DNA of 64,000 nt from Rhodospirillales bacterium (GTDB lineage Bacteria; Pseudomonadota; Alphaproteobacteria; SMXQ01): contig JABIXC010000002.1 of NCBI GenBank assembly GCA_018666775.1, forward strand, positions 1 through 64,000, given 5' to 3'. The notes under the pieces were generated by a model that saw nothing but the letters and a program-made list of their open reading frames with translations, made no database searches and had not been told where the DNA came from. Each line of letters begins with the position of its first letter. Within the stretch, counting starts at the first letter, position 1. Below are positions 1 to 10,342 of the stretch, one piece after another. A program made the translations under genes and the position numbers.

Positions 1-415
1 AAAACCATGGAAACCCGGCGCTTGCAATACCGCAAATACGCCGCTTAATATGATCAACCAGATGGGCCAGACCCTCTCTTAGATCAGGCCGCCAGATGTT
101 CCATTTTATATGACGACGGACAAACACACCGCAAGATCGGGCGCTCCTTCGACCACATGCGCAACCGGGTGCGATACATCCTGAAAGGCGCAGATCCTGA
201 TACCCGTCACTTCCTTGGCTGCACGAAAGCGGAACAGACATACATCAAGGGAAAACGCGCTGGCGTATCCCAGGACCTAAATAGGAAGGCGAGGTGTGCA
301 GCGGGTGCCGTCCAACCATCAGGGGCCAAGAAACCCACAAGGGAGATGTTGGAGGCAGCGAGTATTAGGAATTTTATCAAGGATGAGAGAAAGGAGGCTC
401 TGCAAGGGGCCATTG
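1..415. other. left-edge accessory DNA, no recognised gene
   Basis: I recognise no gene in this stretch. A short open frame ends at a TAA at 46-48 (last residues RLQYRKYAA) and could be the 3' end of a gene that starts outside the window, but it is too short to judge. After it comes one small open frame, listed separately. The stretch belongs to the same AT-richer accessory region as the integrase and the repeat protein to its right, so degenerate mobile-element remnants are plausible. I saw no inverted-repeat ends. Confidence 0.3.
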
Positions 416-432
416 TTAGTCCAGATTATTGA
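157..432 (+). CDS. small hypothetical ORF, doubtful
   Basis: A 91-residue, Lys/Arg-rich frame that I do not recognise. It converges on and slightly overlaps the 3' end of the Sel1-MORN-protease gene on the other strand. The frame stays open upstream of the ATG back to a stop at 46-48, so it may be the remnant of a longer gene. No Shine-Dalgarno sequence, signal peptide or known motif is visible. Its position at the edge of an integrase-linked element makes a decayed mobile-element gene possible. It may equally be non-coding. Confidence 0.2.
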   Translation: MRNRVRYILKGADPDTRHFLGCTKAEQTYIKGKRAGVSQDLNRKARCAAGAVQPSGAKKPTREMLEAASIRNFIKDERKEALQGAIVSPDY

Positions 433-2662
433 ACATAACCTTCTTGGACTTCATCTTCTGAATCTGTGCCACCGTCATCCAACACGACAAATAGTATGTC
501 CCATTAGAAATTATTTTTCCTAGCTTGGATTTTGAAATGGACCGTGTGTTTGGACGGGGTAAAGATACATTACTGCTCTCTAAAATATTTCTCACGACAC
601 TCGTTTTGATACCGAAGTTGGTATTTTCGGGTAGTGATCCAAATTTCTTCAGTACCTTCATTTTATCCAATCTTGCGACGGCAACACCGACCACATTGCC
701 CTTATCGTCGAGTATTGGACCACCACTGTTGCCAGGTTGCAGAGCAGCATCAATCTGGATGTTAGAGAAGTTATTCCCAATACCGGTAAGGGAACTGATA
801 ATGCCCTTGGTGACCTTAATCGATGTACTCACTTTGCGGCCAAAGGGATAGCCAGCGACATAAACGTCCTGAAGAAGTTCTGGCTTGTCATTGCTCAATG
901 GGAAGACTGTGGAAGGATGAAAATTTCCTTTCAGAAGAGCAAGATCATTCCTTGGATCAAAAGTAATCACAGTCGCCGCAATAGACTTGCCTTGGTGATG
1001 TATTTTGATGTGTTTACACCCTTTGATAACATGGTCGTTAGTGATGACATGCCCGTCATTGGAAACGGCAAATCCGCTTCCAGAGGATGCTCGAATAATT
1101 TTATTAGGGTCTAATTTCCTTTTGGGCGTACGGCGTGAACGTTTCCTAGCAGTTACAGATGGGGTCACTTTCTTAGAATATTCGAACTTTCCATTTTTCC
1201 ACATGCCCTCTGTCACACGTCCATTGGCAAACTTATAGGTGCCCGGTCCGTGCCTCTTGCCATTCCTGTATTCACCGACGTATTTGTCGCCAGACTTGGC
1301 GTAGGTATATGTGCCCTGTCCGTGCTTCTTACCATTTTTATATTCACCAGCGTGTGTGTCGCCAGACTTGGCGTAGGTATATGTGCCCTGTCCGTGCTTC
1401 TTTCTATTTCTGAATTCACCAACGTATTTATTACCAGACTTGGCAAAGTAAAAGGTGCCCTGTCCGTGCTTCTTGCCATTTCTCCATTCACCGACGTATT
1501 TGTCGCCAGACTTGGCAAAGTTAATAGTGCCCTGTCCACGAGGCTTACCATTTCTCCATTCACCGACGTATTCGTCGCCATTCGCCCACACATAAGTGCC
1601 CTGTCTGTTAAAATTTCCATTCCTGAATTCACCAACGTATTTGTCCCCTGCATATTTAGGCGGTGAATTCGCAACCACTGTTCCTTGGCACCCATCCCAC
1701 GAAGCAAAACCTGAAACAGGCCCAGTGAGGGGACTGCCATCGCACTCAGGCAGTGCAGAATGCACTCTGGCTTTTCGCGGGGAAGTGCGAGGCGTTCTAC
1801 GTGGAGATTTTTTTGCATCTGAGTTTGATTCAGTTGAGGAAGAAGGGGCTGGGTTTTGCGAAATTTTTGAATTAACCGAAGGGGGTGATTCAGGGTGCGA
1901 AGCTGCGGTGCTCGGTTTTGGCACCAAGCCCTTGCTGATCATAATCTTTAGCACCTTCTTAGCCTGTGTTAGTCCTTGGGCGGCTGCTTTGCGGAGCAAT
2001 TTGGCAGATTCTATGAAGTCTACTGCTACTCCTCGTCCTTTAGCGTAAAAGAGACCAAGATTAAATTGGGCTTCCGGTAGTCCCTGCTCAGCGGCCTTTT
2101 TATAAAACTTCGCAGCTTCAGAATAGTCTTGTGGAACACCAAGTCCTCTTGCATAGAAGACACCCAAATTGTATTGGGCCTTTGAAAATCCCTTTTTAGC
2201 TGCACTTTGGTACCATATTGCCGCTTCTCTATAGTCTTTTGGAACTCCAAAACCCCTTTCGTAGGAAAATCCAAGGTTGTAAAGGGCAATGGCCTCTCCC
2301 TGCTTCGCTGCCTCGCGGAACCAAGCAATGGCCTTTTTATAATCTTGAGGGACGCCATGGCCTGCTTGGTGTATGGCACCAAGGTTATTTTGGGCAAGCC
2401 CAAACCCTTGCACGGCAGCCTTGCTATAGAATTCAAAGGCCTTTTTATAATCTTGAGGGACGCCATAACCATTCTCATACATCACGCCTAGGTTATTTTG
2501 GGCCAAGGGAATTCCCCGCTGGGCAAGATGCGACCATTCTTTTAAGGCAGTACTGTAGTCGCCCTGATCATAGGCAACTTTTCCCTTCTGAAAATCCTGC
2601 GCCGTTGCAGGCAGAGCGATTAGCAGCGTGATGATGAAAAAAATCCTGGCAGTTATGCGCAT
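416..2662 (-). CDS. secreted Sel1-repeat / MORN-repeat / trypsin-like serine protease protein
   Basis: A 748-residue multidomain protein. The chosen ATG at 2662 gives a clean signal peptide (MRITARIFFIITLLIALPATA) and has AGGA about 6 nt upstream; a longer frame upstream adds no recognisable sequence. Domains in order: signal peptide 1-21; five to six 36-residue Sel1-like repeats (about 52-245, motif AQ-NLG-Y-G-GVPQDY); a Ser/Pro/Lys-rich linker (about 250-300); six full MORN repeats plus one partial (about 335-490, motif YVGE-RNGK-HGQGTY); and an S1C-type protease domain (about 520-705) with all three catalytic motifs visible: TNDHV (His), RNDLALL (Asp) and PGNSGGP (Ser). It is therefore probably an exported, active protease presented on two protein-interaction scaffolds. 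The substrate is unknown. It lies in the integrase-linked, AT-richer region, which suggests horizontal acquisition. Confidence 0.85.
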   Translation of the reverse strand: MRITARIFFIITLLIALPATAQDFQKGKVAYDQGDYSTALKEWSHLAQRGIPLAQNNLGVMYENGYGVPQDYKKAFEFYSKAAVQGFGLAQNNLGAIHQAGHGVPQDYKKAIAWFREAAKQGEAIALYNLGFSYERGFGVPKDYREAAIWYQSAAKKGFSKAQYNLGVFYARGLGVPQDYSEAAKFYKKAAEQGLPEAQFNLGLFYAKGRGVAVDFIESAKLLRKAAAQGLTQAKKVLKIMISKGLVPKPSTAASHPESPPSVNSKISQNPAPSSSTESNSDAKKSPRRTPRTSPRKARVHSALPECDGSPLTGPVSGFASWDGCQGTVVANSPPKYAGDKYVGEFRNGNFNRQGTYVWANGDEYVGEWRNGKPRGQGTINFAKSGDKYVGEWRNGKKHGQGTFYFAKSGNKYVGEFRNRKKHGQGTYTYAKSGDTHAGEYKNGKKHGQGTYTYAKSGDKYVGEYRNGKRHGPGTYKFANGRVTEGMWKNGKFEYSKKVTPSVTARKRSRRTPKRKLDPNKIIRASSGSGFAVSNDGHVITNDHVIKGCKHIKIHHQGKSIAATVITFDPRNDLALLKGNFHPSTVFPLSNDKPELLQDVYVAGYPFGRKVSTSIKVTKGIISSLTGIGNNFSNIQIDAALQPGNSGGPILDDKGNVVGVAVARLDKMKVLKKFGSLPENTNFGIKTSVVRNILESSNVSLPRPNTRSISKSKLGKIISNGTYYLSCWMTVAQIQKMKSKKVMFNNLD
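1190..1665 (-). repeat. 72-bp tandem repeats encoding MORN units
   Basis: The motif GTGCCC (+ strand) recurs at 1239, 1311, 1383, 1455, 1527 and 1596, giving a period of 72 bp (24 codons) with one 69-bp step. Units are close to identical in places, for example the shared segments around 1290-1310 and 1362-1382. The repeats are coding, each encoding one MORN motif. Such similarity at DNA level suggests recent unit duplication or active homogenisation, and copy-number variation between strains is likely. Confidence 0.85.
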
Positions 2663-3034: not shown

Positions 3035-4303
3035 TCACGATTGGTCTCCGTGGAGCGAGATAACTTCGGCAGTTTCATCACTGAAAGGTCTCGAGCAAAA
3101 ATCAGCCCACATTCCCATCAACCGCCCCCGCTTATCAAAAACATCAGATCGTGCATAAGCCTGCGTCACCTTATCACCAACTATATGGTGCAGAGCTGCT
3201 TCAGCAACGGTCAGAGGAAATGGTGCCTTGTCCTGGGCCCAGTTCGTAAAGGTTGAGCGAAAACCGTGTGCTGACATTTCAGGCCAATCTCGCTTGAGCC
3301 TCATGCGGTCTAGGACACTATCCATAGCCCCATTGGATAGCCCCCTCTTTGTACCAATTGAGGGGAATATAAAATCTGACTCCCTAAATTCCTTCATAGC
3401 CAAGAGCACAGAAACGGCATCATCGTTCAAAGGGACACGGTGCTCCTTCTTACGCTTCATATGATCTGCGGGACAGGTCCATACCCGTTTCTCGATATCT
3501 ATCTCACTCCATTGTGCCTTAAAGACCGTCCCTACACGACTTGCGGTCAGGATTGTATATTCAAGGGCCTTTGCGGCTACGCCTTTGCGTTGACGGAGGG
3601 CCTCCATGAATTCATTCATTAGATCATAGGGCAATGCGGGGTGGTGTCTCACCTCCCGGACGTCACTAGGCTTCGCTAAATGGTGCTCAAGGTTACCTCG
3701 CCATTCGGCAGGGTTGTCGCCCTCCCTAAGCCCCCTAGACTTGGCAGCATCTAGAACCGCCTGGATGCGCTGGCGAACCCTGACTGCTGTTTCCGTTTTA
3801 GTAGTCCATATAGGGTCCAGCACAATGAGGATATGATTTGTATCAATCAATTGAACAGGCAAATCCCCTATGGTGGGATAGGCATAGGTCTTGAGAGTGT
3901 TTTCCCATTGCTGACGATGCTTGGGATTTTTCCACCCCGCCTGTTTTCTTTTAAGAAAGGCCTCGGCTACACTTTTGAAAGTCTCGGCACTTAAGGCATC
4001 CATTTTCGTCTTAGCCATATTGGCCCGCCGGGAATCAATAGGGTCGATACCTTCCCTCACCCTTGCGGCTGCCTGCCTAGCCCGGTTACGCGCCTCAGAT
4101 AGCCCCACAGCCGGATAACGACCAAGACCCATCTTTCTCCGTTTCCTATTGAGCTGATAGCGGTAGTACCAAGATCTTGCACCACCCTCCTTTACACCGA
4201 GATACAGAGCGCCTTTTTCAATTTTCGCTGCAGATTGAGGGTCGCGATGCATTCCAAGCTTATCAATTGCCTGAACTGTTCTATCGGTCCATTTATCGGC
4301 CAT
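3035..4303 (-). CDS. int: tyrosine-type site-specific integrase (P4/DUF4102 family)
   Basis: A 422-residue integrase that catalyses recombination between an element and its attachment site. The chosen ATG (MADKWTDRTVQAIDKLG) has GGGAG about 9 nt upstream. It has an N-terminal arm-binding DUF4102 domain (about 1-85, with LGRYPAVGLSEAR), a SAM-like core-binding domain, and a catalytic domain with the Arg in LTASRVGTV, the His-x-x-Arg box HGFRST, a second His (LHHIVGD) and the Tyr in QAYARSD. All key residues are present, so it should be active. Its 5' end faces the 3' end of the tRNA-Ser gene 200 bp away, the classic layout for an island integrated at a tRNA. The element therefore extends leftward. 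Confidence 0.93.
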   Translation of the reverse strand: MADKWTDRTVQAIDKLGMHRDPQSAAKIEKGALYLGVKEGGARSWYYRYQLNRKRRKMGLGRYPAVGLSEARNRARQAAARVREGIDPIDSRRANMAKTKMDALSAETFKSVAEAFLKRKQAGWKNPKHRQQWENTLKTYAYPTIGDLPVQLIDTNHILIVLDPIWTTKTETAVRVRQRIQAVLDAAKSRGLREGDNPAEWRGNLEHHLAKPSDVREVRHHPALPYDLMNEFMEALRQRKGVAAKALEYTILTASRVGTVFKAQWSEIDIEKRVWTCPADHMKRKKEHRVPLNDDAVSVLLAMKEFRESDFIFPSIGTKRGLSNGAMDSVLDRMRLKRDWPEMSAHGFRSTFTNWAQDKAPFPLTVAEAALHHIVGDKVTQAYARSDVFDKRGRLMGMWADFCSRPFSDETAEVISLHGDQS

Positions 4304-4505: not shown

Positions 4506-4597
4506 TGGCGGAGGGAGAGGGATTCGAACCCTCGATACGGGTTACCCCGTATACTGATTTAGCAAACCAGCGCCTTCAGCCACTCGGCCACCCCTCC
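4506..4597 (-). tRNA. tRNA-Ser (anticodon GCT)
   Basis: On the minus strand a 7-bp acceptor stem (GGAGGGG with TCCCTCC), the D-arm sequence GTGGCCGAGTGGCTGAAGG, the anticodon loop TTGCTAA (anticodon GCT, reading AGC/AGU), a long class II variable arm (TATACGGGGTAACCCGTA) and the T-arm GGTTCGAATCC are all visible. A genomic CCA is present at 4506-4508. The long variable arm fits tRNA-Ser. The adjacent integrase suggests that the 3' part of this gene is the attachment site and was rebuilt on integration. Confidence 0.95.
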
Positions 4598-4717
4598 GCA
4601 AAGCACCAAAGCGGTGCCGGGAACATGGTTCTAAATGGGGGGGGGATGGCTGTCAACGAAGCCGTATCAATAAGAATGCATCCAGAGCCAAAACCGGGCA
4701 CCGGATCAAGATATGGA

Positions 4718-5059
4718 TCAGGATTTAGACCAGGCCTGATAGCCGGTTTTCATGGCTTCCAGCGCCGTTTCCAACGCGTTTTCTGAAGCCGTATCTTTTT
4801 CCATCAGGCCGTTATAGGCGTCTCTGGCCTCTACAAAGGCAATCCAGAGTTCTGCCTGGGACACGGCACTGGCCGCCCGGCGTTCATGGTCAACCCGTTC
4901 CTTATCATCCACTTCAACAAGAAGCGTTTTCAGCCGCACGGCCACCTGATGGGCACCGGAAGCATAGGCATGATTGAATGCCGCTAAAATTTTATCAGAC
5001 AATCTGCGGTCAAACGGGGGCTTTCCCAGTTCATGATCCACTGAAACGCTTTCTTGCAT
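4718..5059 (-). CDS. conserved hypothetical protein
   Basis: A 113-residue, mostly helical, charged protein without signal peptide or membrane segment. I do not recognise the family. The ATG at 5059 (MQESVSVDHELGKPP) is preferred because GGAGGG lies 7 nt upstream; ATGs at 5074 and 5089 in the same frame have weaker sites. It is a single gene between the tRNA-Ser and a rightward small gene. The sequence has the balanced composition of a real coding region (heptad-like A/L spacing in the middle, one Cys-free chain). Confidence 0.6.
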   Translation of the reverse strand: MQESVSVDHELGKPPFDRRLSDKILAAFNHAYASGAHQVAVRLKTLLVEVDDKERVDHERRAASAVSQAELWIAFVEARDAYNGLMEKDTASENALETALEAMKTGYQAWSKS

Positions 5060-5257
5060 CTGGGCACCCTCCATCGTCTTGCCTTTCATTGTCCATTACC
5101 AGCCAGCCAAGGCGCCAGACCAGTCACGCAATCATCCCTATAACCAGAGCCCCAGCGGGCGTTGGTCATTTTAGACCACCAATGGTGGCCTATCGTTGTT
5201 AATTTTCCCTAAAAACCACACAAATTAGCCATCGGCCAAAAAAACTATCACTTTAGG

Positions 5258-5263
5258 TATAAT
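5258..5263 (+). promoter_or_regulatory. candidate -10 box for the small gene at 5351
   Basis: A perfect TATAAT sits in an AT-rich stretch 88 bp upstream of the ATG at 5351. No good -35 hexamer is visible at the expected spacing, so an activator or extended recognition may be needed. The rest of 5060-5350 shows no gene. Confidence 0.35.
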
Positions 5264-5350
5264 TTTGCTAAAATGTTTACAACTTTTTAATTACATCCAT
5301 AGGAGACTGTATCTGTCGCAAAGAGGTTATTCAAATCGGGGAGAATACAA

Positions 5351-5575
5351 ATGGCACTTTCAAAAAAATCAGCAGAAGCGCTTTTGGACTTGGTGGAAAT
5401 AAAGCTGAGTTGCATTCAGGTCTATGACCGCGAGGATGCCCGCGAAGTCAAAAAGCTTGAACAGTGCCGGAGAGAAATTCTCGAGCTTTTTGGAAAATCC
5501 AAAGCTGCTCAAAATGCCGAAATTATTCCCATTGATCGTCGAATTCCACCTGAGGCACGCGCCCGGGCAATATAA
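5351..5575 (+). CDS. small conserved hypothetical protein
   Basis: A 74-residue soluble protein with a charged, probably coiled or helical-hairpin N-terminal part (about 4-50) and a Pro/Arg-rich end (PIDRRIPPEARARAI). The start is supported by GGGGAG 8 nt upstream of the ATG. It stands alone, with a candidate -10 box upstream and two hairpins downstream, one of them an intrinsic terminator. That gives it its own transcription unit of small-gene type. Function unknown. Confidence 0.6.
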   Translation: MALSKKSAEALLDLVEIKLSCIQVYDREDAREVKKLEQCRREILELFGKSKAAQNAEIIPIDRRIPPEARARAI

Positions 5576-5618
5576 CAGTCCCAGTTATCGAAATCCCGGT
5601 TGCAGCGCCGGGTTCTAA

Positions 5619-5664
5619 GAGAGGGAACCGTGGCACCCCCCCCCCCTGACCGCGGTTCCCTCTC
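5619..5664. other. 12-bp perfect inverted repeat with poly-C loop
   Basis: GAGAGGGAACCG at 5619-5630 pairs perfectly with CGGTTCCCTCTC at 5653-5664. The 22-nt loop contains a run of eleven C residues (5636-5646). No T-tract follows directly, so it is not by itself a standard terminator; a true terminator lies just downstream. In RNA it would be a stable hairpin at the 3' end of the small upstream gene, and the C run is a likely slippage hotspot. Confidence 0.7.
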
Positions 5665-5673
5665 ACTTTATTT

Positions 5674-5699
5674 AAGGCGCCCTTATGGCGTCTTTTTTT
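5674..5699 (+). terminator. rho-independent terminator
   Basis: Stem AAGGCGCC/GGCGTCTT (8 bp with one G-U), loop CTTAT, followed by a run of T through 5699. It ends the transcript of the small gene at 5351. The last gene of the leftward GST operon also ends here, at 5706, but the T-tract favours the plus strand. Confidence 0.8.
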
Positions 5700-5705
5700 A
5701 TGAGA

Positions 5706-6347
5706 TCAAAGACCGTCATCTCTGGGTGGGATTTGCAGGCCTGTTTGCACGGCCGGGCGCGTCGCGATGTGATCAAACCAGGTTTTAAGCCTGGGAAAAC
5801 CCGCCAGATCAATTTCCTGCATCTGCCAACGGTGAATCCAGGGCCAGGCGGCAATATCGGCGATGGAATAATCATCGCCTGCAAGGTAGGTCCGGCCATC
5901 GTTAAGGCCTTTTTCAAAAGCCGCATAGATGCGGTTGTTTTCTTCTTTCCACAGATCAAGAAAATGATGGGGATCGCCCTTGTCGCGCAACCGGATCAGC
6001 CAGTGAACCTGCATGGCAGAAAAGGTCAAATGCGTTGAAGCATAAAACAGCCATTCCATGACTGTCGCCCGGGCCGCACCCGATGGGGGCAAAAACTTTC
6101 CCGATTTCTCTGCCAGATAGATAAGAATGGCGCCGGATTCAAACACCGAAACCGTTTCACCGTCGGGCCCATCATCATCGACAATTGCCGGGATGCGCCC
6201 GTTGGGATTAATGGCTTTGAACCACGCTTCCTTCTGTTCCTTCTTTTGAAGGTCCATGGACCGGACCGTATAAGGCAGCCCGGTTTCTTCGAGCATGATG
6301 GAAGCCTTGCGACCATTCGATGTCGCCTTGCTGTAAAGGGTGATCAT
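5706..6347 (-). CDS. glutathione S-transferase, Nu class / YfcG-like (copy 1, last gene of operon)
   Basis: A 213-residue GST, the most divergent of four tandem paralogues. The thioredoxin-like N-terminal domain (about 1-85) starts MITLYSKATSNGRK, keeping the Thr9/Asn11 pair that in YfcG-type enzymes contacts glutathione thiol, followed by the cis-Pro region GRIPAIVDDDGPDG and ESGAILIYLAEKSG. The all-helical C-terminal domain (about 95-205) has the usual DYSIADIAAWPW capping box. The copy lacks the WLMFQMG segment shared by the other three. The YfcG family has glutathione-dependent disulfide reductase or peroxidase activity rather than classical conjugation. It is last in the operon, 19 nt after copy 2. 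The ATG at 6347 gives the family N-terminus; a longer upstream frame is spurious. Confidence 0.9.
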   Translation of the reverse strand: MITLYSKATSNGRKASIMLEETGLPYTVRSMDLQKKEQKEAWFKAINPNGRIPAIVDDDGPDGETVSVFESGAILIYLAEKSGKFLPPSGAARATVMEWLFYASTHLTFSAMQVHWLIRLRDKGDPHHFLDLWKEENNRIYAAFEKGLNDGRTYLAGDDYSIADIAAWPWIHRWQMQEIDLAGFPRLKTWFDHIATRPAVQTGLQIPPRDDGL

Positions 6348-6366
6348 ATCCCTGCCCCCGAACGGA

Positions 6367-7059
6367 TTAGTGTTTGTCGTACTGGGTTTTGCCAAACATA
6401 AATTCCCAGGCCTTATCATCCATCTCTGCGCGGGGGATGCCTTCCAGAATCTTGTTGCCCTCAATTACCTGTGGGCGGGAATCGATTTGGTTAAACCAGC
6501 GCAAGACGTTGGGGAAATCTTCATGGGGCACGCCACGGCGTTCCGGATTACGGCACCACGGATAAATGGCCATATCGGCAATGGAATAATCCTTGCCTGC
6601 AATATATTCATTTTCGGCCAAACGCTTTTCCATCACCCCGTAAAGACGACGGACTTCGTTGCGATACCGATCCTGGGCGTAGGGAATGGGGTCTTTGGCA
6701 TAAACAATAAAATGATTGGCCTGGCCAAACATTGGCCCAACACCCCCCATCTGGAACATCAACCATTCCATAACCCGCGCCCGGGCCTCACCCGATGTTG
6801 GCAAAAACTGACCCGTTTTTTCCGCCAGATAAAACAAAATGGCCCCGGATTCGAACAAACTCATCGGTTTTCCATCGGGGCCATCATGATCAATGATGGC
6901 TGGAATTTTATTATTGATGCTGACTTCCAGAAATTCCGGCTTGAATTGATCCCCCGCCCGGATATCGATGGGGTGCGCATTGAATTCCAGCCCCGTTTCC
7001 TGAAGCATAATATGAACCTTGCGCCCGTTGGGCGTTGTCCAGGAATAAAGATCAATCAT
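6367..7059 (-). CDS. glutathione S-transferase, Nu class / YfcG-like (copy 2)
   Basis: A 230-residue cytoplasmic GST. The N-terminus MIDLYSWTTPNGRK keeps the Thr9 and Asn11 of the Nu class. SINNKIPAIIDHDGPDG and LFESGAILFYLAEKTGQF form the glutathione-binding half, and WLMFQMGGVGPMFGQANHF plus DYSIADMAIYPW the helical half. Of the four copies this looks closest to E. coli YfcG (memory of the family, not a search). It is third in an operon transcribed leftward, 35 nt after copy 3 and 19 nt before copy 1. Likely role: thiol/disulfide or peroxide detoxification with glutathione or glutathionylspermidine-like thiols. Confidence 0.92.
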   Translation of the reverse strand: MIDLYSWTTPNGRKVHIMLQETGLEFNAHPIDIRAGDQFKPEFLEVSINNKIPAIIDHDGPDGKPMSLFESGAILFYLAEKTGQFLPTSGEARARVMEWLMFQMGGVGPMFGQANHFIVYAKDPIPYAQDRYRNEVRRLYGVMEKRLAENEYIAGKDYSIADMAIYPWCRNPERRGVPHEDFPNVLRWFNQIDSRPQVIEGNKILEGIPRAEMDDKAWEFMFGKTQYDKH

Positions 7060-7094
7060 GGTGTTGCCTTTTCTTGTTAGGGCGTCTTAAAAAT

Positions 7095-7751
7095 TTATGC
7101 CGTACCCGCATCAATGCGGATTTTAGAGATTATGTCATCGACCCGTTTTGTCACCGGGCGTTCGCCCACCAGGGCAACCCAGCGCGCAATGTTGGGATAC
7201 GGCTCTAGGTCCGCCCCGAACCGATCAATAGAGCAACAATGGGGCATCAGGCCCATATCGGCGATGGAATACGTATCGCCCGCAATATATTCAGATTTGC
7301 CAAGACGGGAATTGATCACGCCCAGCAATCGATGGGCTTCCTTTACATATCGCTCTCTTGGGTATGCCATGTCGGGCTCGCCCGAGAGCGCGCGGGTATA
7401 AAAATAATGGGCTTCTGTGAACAACGCCCCCGGCGCGCCCATCTGGAACATCAGCCATTGCAGAACATCAAACCAGCTCCGTTCATCATCGGGCCGGAAT
7501 TGCCCGGTTTTTTCAGCAAGATAAATCAGAATAGCCCCGGATTCGAATACCGTTATCGGTTGTCCACCGGGGCCATCAGAATCGACGATGGCGGGCACCT
7601 TGTTATTGGGGTTAATGGCCAGAAATTCAGGCGCCAGCTGTTCTTTCTTTCGCAAATTCACCACGTGCTGGGTATAGGCCAGCCCCGTTTCCTCCAGCAT
7701 CATGAAAATCTTGCGGTTGTTGCCACTGGACCAGCAATAAAAATCAATCAT
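7095..7751 (-). CDS. glutathione S-transferase, Nu class / YfcG-like (copy 3)
   Basis: A 218-residue paralogue. The start (MIDFYCWSSGNNRK) is fixed by homology with its neighbours and by its position one base after the stop codon of copy 4, which implies translational coupling. The position equivalent to Thr9 is Ser, and a Cys stands at position 6, both different from the other copies. The rest is intact: NPNNKVPAIVDSDGPGG, ESGAILIYLAEKTGQF, WLMFQMGAPGALFTEAHYF, TYSIADMGLMP. The residue differences in the active-site loop suggest diverged substrate or redox behaviour, which is inference. Confidence 0.9.
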   Translation of the reverse strand: MIDFYCWSSGNNRKIFMMLEETGLAYTQHVVNLRKKEQLAPEFLAINPNNKVPAIVDSDGPGGQPITVFESGAILIYLAEKTGQFRPDDERSWFDVLQWLMFQMGAPGALFTEAHYFYTRALSGEPDMAYPRERYVKEAHRLLGVINSRLGKSEYIAGDTYSIADMGLMPHCCSIDRFGADLEPYPNIARWVALVGERPVTKRVDDIISKIRIDAGTA

Positions 7752-7752
7752 G

Positions 7753-8406
7753 CTACCGCTCCATCCCAACAGATTCACGCACGTCTTCGCAAATCTCTGC
7801 GGCCCGGATAACCGATGGGCGCTCAGCCATTTGATCGAACCAGCGCTTGAAATTGGGATAATCAGCAAAGTCCAAATTCCGTTTTTCCGGCTGCTGGCAC
7901 CACGGGAAAATCGCAATGTCGGCAATGGAGAAATCCTTGCCCGCGACAAAATCATTGTCTGCAAGCCGCAACTCCAGCACGCCCATCAACCGCTTTGCAT
8001 CTTCGACATAATGATCAAACCCCGCTTTCATGCCGGGCTGATCACGGCGGGAAACAAAATGGCCGGCCTGGCCAAACATGGGGCCAAGGTCCCCCATCTG
8101 GAACATCAACCATTGAATGGTAATGGAGCGCTGGCGGGGATCATCGGATAAAAACTTGCCAGTCTTATGGGCGAGATACATCAAAATCGCACCCGATTCG
8201 AACACTGAATACGGCTGCCCACCGGGGCCATCCAGATCAATGATGGCAGGGATTTTGTTGTTGGGGGAAATGGCCAAAAATTCCGGGCTGAATTGTTCGC
8301 CCCTGGCAAGCACGATGGGATTGATGCGGAATTCAAGCCCGCATTCCTCCAACATAATATAGACCTTGCGCGCGTTGCCCGTCGTCCATGAATGAACCTC
8401 AATCAT
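7753..8406 (-). CDS. glutathione S-transferase, Nu class / YfcG-like (copy 4, first gene of operon)
   Basis: A 217-residue GST, the promoter-proximal member of the four-gene array. N-terminus MIEVHSWTTGNARK (Thr9, Asn11 kept), then SPNNKIPAIIDLDGPGG, ESGAILMYLAHKTGKF, WLMFQMGDLGPMFGQAGHF and DFSIADIAIFPW. The ATG at 8406 has CAGGG 6-7 nt upstream; a longer frame upstream is not supported. Its TAG at 7753-7755 is separated by a single base from the ATG of copy 3. The 140 bp upstream must hold the operon promoter, but no convincing -35/-10 pair was seen. Confidence 0.9.
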   Translation of the reverse strand: MIEVHSWTTGNARKVYIMLEECGLEFRINPIVLARGEQFSPEFLAISPNNKIPAIIDLDGPGGQPYSVFESGAILMYLAHKTGKFLSDDPRQRSITIQWLMFQMGDLGPMFGQAGHFVSRRDQPGMKAGFDHYVEDAKRLMGVLELRLADNDFVAGKDFSIADIAIFPWCQQPEKRNLDFADYPNFKRWFDQMAERPSVIRAAEICEDVRESVGMER

Positions 8407-8547
8407 GCGATGCCCTGCCCCGTTTTTGCCCCCTGTTGTTATATAATTGTGAGGCACTGACATGTTTTCTACCACGGCCTCCCGCACGCGGAAAGCGCAA
8501 GTAGGCGATATTTCCCACTGATCACGGCATTGTTATCTGGGCTCAGC

Positions 8548-8859
8548 CTAGCTGGTGTGCAGTTCGCAGCGGCGTTTCCAGGTTTCTACGGAGGCGGTGC
8601 CGTGGTGGCGTTCCATGGTCTCTTCGTCTAGTTGGTCTAGAACCACGGGGTTGGTGGAACCGGGAGGCAGATAGGTAAAAGCATGATGGCCGTTTTCACC
8701 CTTGATCAGATGGCCATTGGGCATGGTAATCATATCCCCCGAAATGGAAACCTTGCGCCCATCGGTAAAGCACCACTGCCCGTCAATGGCATCGGCGCGA
8801 ACCGAGCCAGCAAATACCGACACAAAGAAAAGAAGCGATAACCCAAACCTGAAGCCCAT
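8548..8859 (-). CDS. small secreted hypothetical protein
   Basis: A 103-residue protein with a good signal peptide (MGFRFGLSLLFFVSVFAGSVRA, cleavage after about residue 22), giving a periplasmic domain of about 80 residues starting DAIDGQWCFTDGRKVSI. Two Cys (in QWCFTDG and KRRCELHT) could form a disulfide. GAGGTG lies 5-6 nt before the ATG. It follows gatB on the same strand after about 30 nt, so it may be co-transcribed with gatCAB. I recognise the type as a small conserved alphaproteobacterial periplasmic protein but not a named family. Confidence 0.7.
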   Translation of the reverse strand: MGFRFGLSLLFFVSVFAGSVRADAIDGQWCFTDGRKVSISGDMITMPNGHLIKGENGHHAFTYLPPGSTNPVVLDQLDEETMERHHGTASVETWKRRCELHTS

Positions 8860-8890
8860 TTCCGCACCTCATGTGTTATGTGATCGAATT

Positions 8891-10342
8891 CTAGTCTGAA
8901 AGTTTTTTACGCAAAATCTCGTTAACCGCACCGGGGTTGGCCTTGCCTTTGGTGGCCTGCATAATCTTGCCCACAAACCATCCGATCACTTTTTCATTGC
9001 CGGATTTGAATTGTTCCACCTGTTCCGGTGCCGATGCAATCACCTTGTCCACTTCGGCTTCAATGGCACCGGTATCGGTGATTTGTTTAAGGCCTTTTTC
9101 TTCAACGACGATGGCCGCACCTTTGCCCGATGCAACCATTTCTTCGAACACATCCTTGGCCAATCGGTTGGAAAGCGTGCCATCAGATATAAGATCCAAA
9201 AGTCCCCCAAGCGCATCTGCGCTCACAGGGCTGTCTCCGATATCAAGGCCTTGATCATTGAGCACCCGAAACAGTTCTCCGCCGATCCAGTTTGCGGCAA
9301 TTTTACCATCGCGCCCTGATGCTGCAGTTTCAAAATATTCGGCCGTTTCACGTTCTGCCACCAAAATGCCTGCGTCATAAGCAGACAAACCGTAATCAGC
9401 AATGAAGCGTGCACATTTTTCATCGGGCAGTTCTGGCAGGTCTGCTTTCAGTTTTTCCACCCATGCCGCATCAAGCACCAGCGGCAACAAATCCGGATCT
9501 GGAAAATAGCGATAATCATGCGCCTCTTCCTTGGACCGCATGGACCGGGTTTCGCATTTGACCGAGTCAAACAGGCGGGTTTCCTGAGCCACTTCGCCGC
9601 CATCTTCGATCAACTCGATCTGGCGGGCGGCTTCAAATTCAATGGCTTGGTGGACAAAGCGGATGGAATTGACGTTCTTGACCTCAGCGCGGGTACCCAA
9701 TGCTTCACCCGGGCGACGCACAGAGACGTTCACATCGGCGCGCATAGAGCCTTCTTCCATATTGCCATCGCAGGTGCCCAGATAGCGGACAATGGAACGC
9801 AGCTTGGTCAGGTATGCGCAGGCTTCTTCAGGGGAGCGAATGTCTGGTTCAGACACAATTTCCATCAACGCGACGCCACAACGGTTCAAATCCACATAGG
9901 TTGCCTTGGGGTCCTGATCATGGATGGATTTACCAGCATCCTGTTCCAGATGCAGGCGCGTGATGCCAATGTTTCGTTGGCTGCCATCTTCCATATCCAG
10001 AACCATCACGCCTTCGCCCACCACGGGCTGGGTGAATTGAGAAATTTGATAGCCTTGGGGAAGGTCTGGATAAAAATAATTTTTGCGATCAAACACGGAC
10101 ACCAGATTGATCTTTGCCCCCAGGCCAAGCCCCGTGCGCACGGCCTGTTCCACACAGACCCCATTGATCACCGGCAACATGCCGGGCATGGCCGCATCCA
10201 CCAAAGACACCTGAGAATTCGGTGCCGCACCAAAGGTGGTGGCAGCACCTGAAAACAATTTTGCATTGGAAATCACCTGGGCGTGAACCTCCAGCCCGAT
10301 GACCATTTCCCATTCACCGGTATTGCCTTGAAGCAAGCTCAT
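8891..10342 (-). CDS. gatB: aspartyl/glutamyl-tRNA(Asn/Gln) amidotransferase subunit B
   Basis: A 483-residue tRNA-binding and ATP-dependent activating subunit of GatCAB, which converts Glu-tRNA(Gln) and Asp-tRNA(Asn) to the amide forms. The N-terminal catalytic core opens with [13 protein letters not shown] and contains [18 protein letters not shown]. The C-terminal YqeY-like domain ends [15 protein letters not shown]. Length is standard. The start overlaps the gatA stop by 4 nt (ATGA), so translation is coupled. With aspS in the same window, the amidation route for Asn and/or Gln tRNA is likely used by this organism. Confidence 0.98.

Follow-up and report, generated by a model that had tools for sequence, protein, structure and literature searches.

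What does an exported protease that carries two kinds of repeats do beside an integrase and a tRNA gene? The question is raised by a gene near the start of the window, as the whole 64,000-nucleotide stretch of Rhodospirillales DNA analysed here is called. The first-pass annotation had described an exported protein joining Sel1 and MORN repeats to an intact S1C protease domain, and had taken it for an accessory factor on a tRNA-linked element, perhaps for interaction with other cells, membranes or phage. The analysis confirms the observation and, on the whole, partly supports the interpretation.

Domain layout and protease fold

The gene and its product are composed of the following parts.
416..2662, minus strand: gene for the exported Sel1-MORN-Trypsin_2 protease, 748 aa, stop included, ORF intact
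2597..2662, minus strand: residues 1-22 of the translation, by eye an apparent type I signal peptide (ATA-Q)
1928..2596, minus strand: Sel1 solenoid of six helix pairs, residues 23-245 (PF08238, 3.5e-54; AF2 pLDDT >90)
1697..1927, minus strand: disordered Ser/Pro/Lys-rich linker, residues 246-322, of which 73 residues (about 250-322) are disordered in the AF2 model (pLDDT mostly <50)
1175..1696, minus strand: MORN sheet, residues 323-496; cysteines 307 and 325 belong to its N-cap (PF02493, 1.6e-33; AF2; cysteine positions)
569..1117, minus strand: Trypsin_2 protease domain, residues 516-698, with the triad H544/D573/S646 and Cys549 (PF13365, 1e-28; AF2; Foldseek)
419..568, minus strand: conserved C-terminal tail, residues 699-748, TYYLSCWMT with Cys727 (alignments; co-occurrence with Cys549; AF2)

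All three Pfam families are matched far above their cut-offs (Sel1, 179.7 against 30.7 bits; MORN, 113 against 22.5; Trypsin_2, 101 against 27.6), PF08238 in five stretches, and the catalytic triad is intact. The N-terminus, MRITARIFFIITLLIALPATAQ, reads by eye as a type I signal peptide, and AGGA is present in the bases 5' of the ATG. The description as an exported protein with Sel1, MORN and protease parts thus holds. In the AF2 model of the whole chain, the Sel1 solenoid is followed by the linker, the MORN sheet (here 325-496), a second, short linker and finally the tailed protease (domain at about 516-698), although the arrangement of these domains is not predicted because the pTM is low (0.43). 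The protease with its tail modelled alone has a mean pLDDT of 92.5, and the tail is predicted to form a helix, a strand and a helix.

The nearest folds found by Foldseek are DegS lacking its PDZ domain, which is the best match, and the protease domains of HtrA1. This raises the alternative that the protein is a host periplasmic quality-control protease of the HtrA/Deg type, which adjoins an integrase by chance and uses its repeats only for tethering misfolded envelope proteins. The chymotrypsin fold and the His-Asp-Ser triad are indeed those of HtrA/Deg (S1C) proteases such as DegS, DegP and HtrA1, and to this extent the earlier term S1C stands. Membership in the HtrA/Deg family is rejected, however, since Pfam finds no PDZ domain in the protein and none of the equivalog models reaches its cut-off (TIGR02037, 98.6 against 416.2 bits; DegS, HhoA and others lower); the C-terminal tail and the N-terminal scaffolds are also different. 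Without a PDZ domain, its regulation must differ from that of DegS and DegP. In addition, further trypsin-fold proteases are encoded in the source genome, and at least one of them (C19) resembles the DegP/DegQ type by eye. MarP (Rv3671c), a periplasmic chymotrypsin-fold protease that is stabilised by a disulfide, is also among the Foldseek matches (3k6y), although the window protein lacks the N-terminal membrane domain of MarP, and membership is rejected on the score of NCBIfam NF033740 (88.3 against a cut-off of 250 bits). Assignment to a known anti-phage defence system is likewise rejected, the PADLOC matches (RT-Protease_XI and others) being generic trypsin-domain similarity over the protease.

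Cysteine occurs at just four positions in the protein, 307, 325, 549 and 727. In 138 trypsin-fold proteins two cysteine positions were compared, one five residues past the catalytic His and the other within the last 45 residues of the chain: both cysteines are present in 76, both are absent from 55 and one alone is present in 7, so that the pair is found in 76 of the 83 proteins having either one, in rows that are related proteins and hence not phylogenetically independent. Because of this co-occurrence a disulfide between Cys549 and Cys727 is predicted with reasonable confidence, and it would fasten the tail to that side of the barrel on which the active site lies. A tail held in this way would stabilise or gate the protease in the oxidising periplasm, in place of a PDZ domain.

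The tRNA-Ser(GCT) locus

Three further features surround the protease gene.
3035..4303, minus strand: tyrosine recombinase integrase (Arm-DNA-bind_3, Phage_int_M and Phage_integrase by Pfam; PHROG phrog_1, 1.8e-45)
4506..4597, minus strand: tRNA-Ser (GCT), probable integration site, with the element on the 3' side of the tRNA (tRNA call; synteny in relatives without integrase)
157..432, plus strand: 91-aa ORF at the contig edge, without a Pfam, NCBIfam or PHROG match

The integrase sits 3' of the tRNA gene, as in an element integrated at a tRNA, and the neighbourhood reported by the first-pass annotation is thereby borne out. So is its remark on AT-richer sequence: the GC content of the gene is 46.4%, against a mean of 53.1% (SD 1.7%, minimum 48.8%) for same-sized windows in the rest of the 64 kb. 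Contig C2 begins at the first base of the window, so that it does not reach the far end of the element. The small ORF at the edge may be a remnant of the next gene of the element, which is uncertain. A search of the assembly for a further copy of the tRNA 3' end (att repeat) gave none, and with the far end missing the boundaries of the element are therefore unproven. In two genomes of the same family (G001 and G010) tRNA-Ser(GCT) adjoins a homologue of the neighbouring gene at 4718-5089, and a third (G007) matches this gene together with a stretch of the tRNA. On the other side of the tRNA site, where some of the loci are short, none of the three was found to have an integrase. The protease gene is absent from the other genomes of the family, in which the best matches are HtrA-type proteases and a distant Sel1-trypsin protein (G009), and this absence argues against a quality-control protease of the host.

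In the 4.5 kb of the element that the contig covers, no structural, lysis or replication gene of a phage is seen. Four consecutive glutathione S-transferase-like ORFs, by eye an apparent tandem array, lie at 5706-8487 on the minus strand of the window.

A clade with exchanged fronts

The trypsin-fold proteins that share the tail are of three kinds by their front, which is Sel1, MORN or another domain. Sel1-Trypsin_2-tail proteins are common in Alphaproteobacteria, and MORN-Trypsin_2-tail proteins occur in several alphaproteobacterial families (L070, G114, G203, G289 and G066); an example of the third kind is a PnrA/Bmp-like domain on a tail-bearing trypsin in SAR116 (locus L072). An extended form of the tail motif, TYYLSCWMTxAQIxxMxSxKVxF, is found with small departures in the window protein, L070, G114, G399, G401 and G407. 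The front of this closest set is MORN in L070, G114, G399 and G401, with up to about 16 units, and Sel1 in G407. In the IQ-TREE tree of the protease core the window protein, the four MORN-type proteins and the Sel1-type protein form a clade of six rows with support of 97/95. Since G407 with its Sel1 front and the window protein with both fronts group with the MORN rows, fronts have been exchanged inside this SCWMT clade. The nearest protease cores (69-73% identity; G114, G399, G401 and G407) all belong to another order, which fits horizontal transfer.

The MORN-Trypsin_2-SCWMT proteins (L070; L194 of G114; L248 of G399; L249 of G401) resemble the window protein in the MORN N-cap, in the core (65-73% identity) and in a nearly identical tail motif, and two of the four have an integrase neighbour; they differ in lacking Sel1, and L248 and L249 carry about 11-16 MORN units. 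The alphaproteobacterial Sel1-Trypsin_2-ECWx proteins share the tail cysteine and the His-loop cysteine with it, although they are without MORN and the SCWMT extension and lie elsewhere in the tree. A Tryp-(Sel1)6 architecture of then unknown function was reported in 2008 for Pelodictyon luteolum YP_374752.1 (PMC2605481); it likewise combines Sel1 repeats with a trypsin-fold protease in a single chain, but lacks MORN and has the trypsin first in the reported order. No description of a MORN-trypsin protein or of the triple fusion was found in the literature searched, which covers few subscription journals, and the SCWMT-tail clade is undescribed there, whereas the pairwise fusions are already known or recurrent.

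Sel1, MORN and Trypsin_2 in one chain were found in the window only, among the best matches, ranked by a protease-MORN model, that were opened in 385 genomes of the class, 27 of the order of G114 and 398 of the phylum, a survey that is not exhaustive. The three modules together are thus unusual, as had been supposed, to the extent that the roughly 800 sampled Pseudomonadota genomes gave no second triple. The pairwise fusions are nevertheless widespread, and the window protein is therefore a rearrangement of known parts. A unique architecture as the main point is rejected, because Sel1-trypsin and MORN-trypsin fusions both recur.

The junction suggests how the fusion arose. In MORN-only relatives the mature part opens with (S/A)LPxC...W..C, or a sequence much like it, and MORN units come next; the window protein has the same N-cap, SALPEC...WDGC, after its linker, the end of which is the ALPxC stretch. 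In G203 a Sel1 gene (L195 1122-2303) and a MORN-trypsin gene (L195 3559-5013) stand unfused, 1.3 kb apart. On the simplest reading, a gene for a signal peptide plus Sel1 would have become attached to the mature portion of a MORN-trypsin gene, as the N-cap in common with MORN-only relatives and the unfused neighbours in G203 and L264 suggest. A wrong joining of a Sel1 half and a MORN-trypsin half in assembly could be suspected, because only 416 bases separate the gene from the edge of the contig and the three-part fusion is seen once; it is highly improbable, as the frame is single and unbroken, a natural linker and the conserved MORN N-cap stand at the junction, and GC is alike along the whole gene.

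Two other loci with protease genes were noted by eye. At L063 2413-3624 in G004, of the window's own family, one protein combines MORN repeats with an apparent retropepsin-type aspartic protease (DSGAS motif), a further pairing of MORN and protease. L199 991-7531 in G289, possibly another island, combines a Lon-protease-like ORF and a helicase-like fragment with a MORN-trypsin gene whose product has a lipobox.

Mobile elements, phage and a possible role at the envelope

A tyrosine recombinase lies within 1.5 kb of a tail-bearing protease gene in four independent loci (the window, G114, G401 and SAR116 L072), whereas about 95 other loci gave only two integrase-like matches, both more than 3 kb away, in a comparison made after the fact on 103 loci in total, some of them duplicates. 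A tRNA gene stands beside the integrase in three of the four, the window, L072 (tRNA-Ser) and G114 (tRNA-Val). This recurrence argues against chance adjacency to a host quality-control protease, although many tail-bearing relatives, for example in Bradyrhizobium, G090 and G407, are in ordinary chromosomal surroundings; taken with the evidence above, such a housekeeping role is rather improbable.

MORN-trypsin genes are also present on two IMG/VR phage contigs. L264/L280 is prophage-like: it encodes an integrase, a repressor of the S24 type and a VapE/DNA polymerase protein, along with a RuvC-like protein and a helicase that were both recognized by eye; after these phage-type genes come caspase-FGE, MORN-trypsin-tail and Sel1 genes. 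In L268 (IMGVR_UViG_3300020205_003425) a permuted trypsin-tail-MORN gene at 7695-9413 lies between a tail-fibre gene and the genes for an endolysin and an integrase. A search of viral contigs with an SCWMT DNA pattern gave no match, and the first two protein scans of them gave one MORN-only phage array and otherwise nothing. Another viral contig, L150 (IMGVR_UViG_3300031801_001120), has three consecutive MORN-repeat genes among virion-like genes at 4680-7483. A member of the phage protein family phrog_4756 is encoded near the MORN-trypsin gene in two contigs (L070 6376-7569; L194 3878-5470); its search in the source genome gave no match, and the control was silent as well.

The region L264 6868-11544 (IMGVR_UViG_3300028844_006665) contains five frames, including the MORN-trypsin gene and two Sel1-type genes, with near-identical leaders, M[RK]KLTAxxCLTxxVLxG. 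The DNA just 5' of the ATG is alike too, and L195 and L253 share the leader more weakly. The leaders look like a shared cassette, which could help module shuffling. At L072 7536-9482, in the SAR116 tRNA-integrase locus of the PnrA/Bmp-like-trypsin protein, there is a gene combining MORN and a caspase (Peptidase_C14).

These gene sets allow the alternative of an exported protease cascade borne by phages, in which the window protein would be a fused version that acts in sensing at the envelope and in cell death or exclusion. In L264 a caspase gene is clustered with MORN-trypsin and Sel1 genes, a MORN-caspase gene lies beside a tail-bearing protease and an integrase in L072, and the leader recurs among the L264 genes and in two relatives. 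Architectures that join MORN or Sel1 to a metacaspase are also listed for an aquatic community (PMC4933709), i.e. the same two repeat types on a protease of aquatic bacteria, although the domain is a caspase and not a trypsin. No paper on MORN, phage and caspase together was found in the literature searched, in which few subscription journals are covered. No caspase gene is found near the window gene, however, and a regex scan of the relatives' loci gave L072 only, and later also L264; moreover, the leader of the window protein differs from that of L264. A cascade is hence quite unlikely here.

A secreted factor against other cells, gained by horizontal transfer and serving predation, virulence or nutrient proteolysis, would account for the export signal and the repeat scaffolds, Sel1 and MORN repeats being known interaction modules. 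No secretion system, toxin or immunity gene is seen near the window gene, though, and a lipobox recognized by eye in L248, L249, L199 and L264 suggests that these relatives are retained in the envelope of their own cell, so that this alternative is very unlikely.

The reading preferred here, with a probability of roughly 0.6 as a whole, is that the exported trypsin-fold protease is cargo of an element at tRNA-Ser(GCT), belongs to a clade with exchangeable fronts and has a role at the envelope. Its architecture, triad, tail and clade, its linkage to an integrase and a tRNA, and the fact that phage and prophage contigs carry MORN-trypsin genes, are read from the sequences themselves. The part of the reading that concerns mobile cargo and a modular clade, in which the protease core and the SCWMT-type tail are constant while the front is MORN, Sel1 or both, is very probably correct. 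An accessory factor on a tRNA-linked element, as first proposed, is well supported by the recurring adjacency to integrase and tRNA, the tRNA site without integrase in relatives, the nearest relatives in another order and the MORN-trypsin genes on prophage and phage contigs. A role with other cells, membranes or phage may be envisaged, its linkage to phage being circumstantial.

On the preferred reading the protease would be exported from a gene carried beside the integrase of the inserted element. Its Sel1 and MORN repeats would bind a partner in the envelope and thereby place the protease, which would cut an envelope protein or an incoming protein and so protect the cell that carries the gene, whether through superinfection exclusion or through defence of the envelope. 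Prophage genes are well known, as a class, for altering their host so that phages are excluded (see, e.g., the review PMC11436027). Such a phage-exclusion or envelope-defence role is proposed only tentatively.

As a wider and speculative picture, against which the odds are considerable, temperate phages as well as integrative elements in alphaproteobacteria, marine and other, might carry exported lysogenic-conversion proteases of an undescribed class, whose MORN and Sel1 sensor cassettes are swapped or fused, and which, sometimes with exported caspases, cut incoming phage or competitor proteins at the envelope. The natural series of modules, MORN only, Sel1 only and both, together with the predicted tail disulfide, would make scaffold selectivity directly testable. 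Envelope proteases are usually viewed as host housekeeping, and a constant protease and tail with swapped scaffolds, sited repeatedly at integrases and in prophages, would point to envelope control that is borne by phages.
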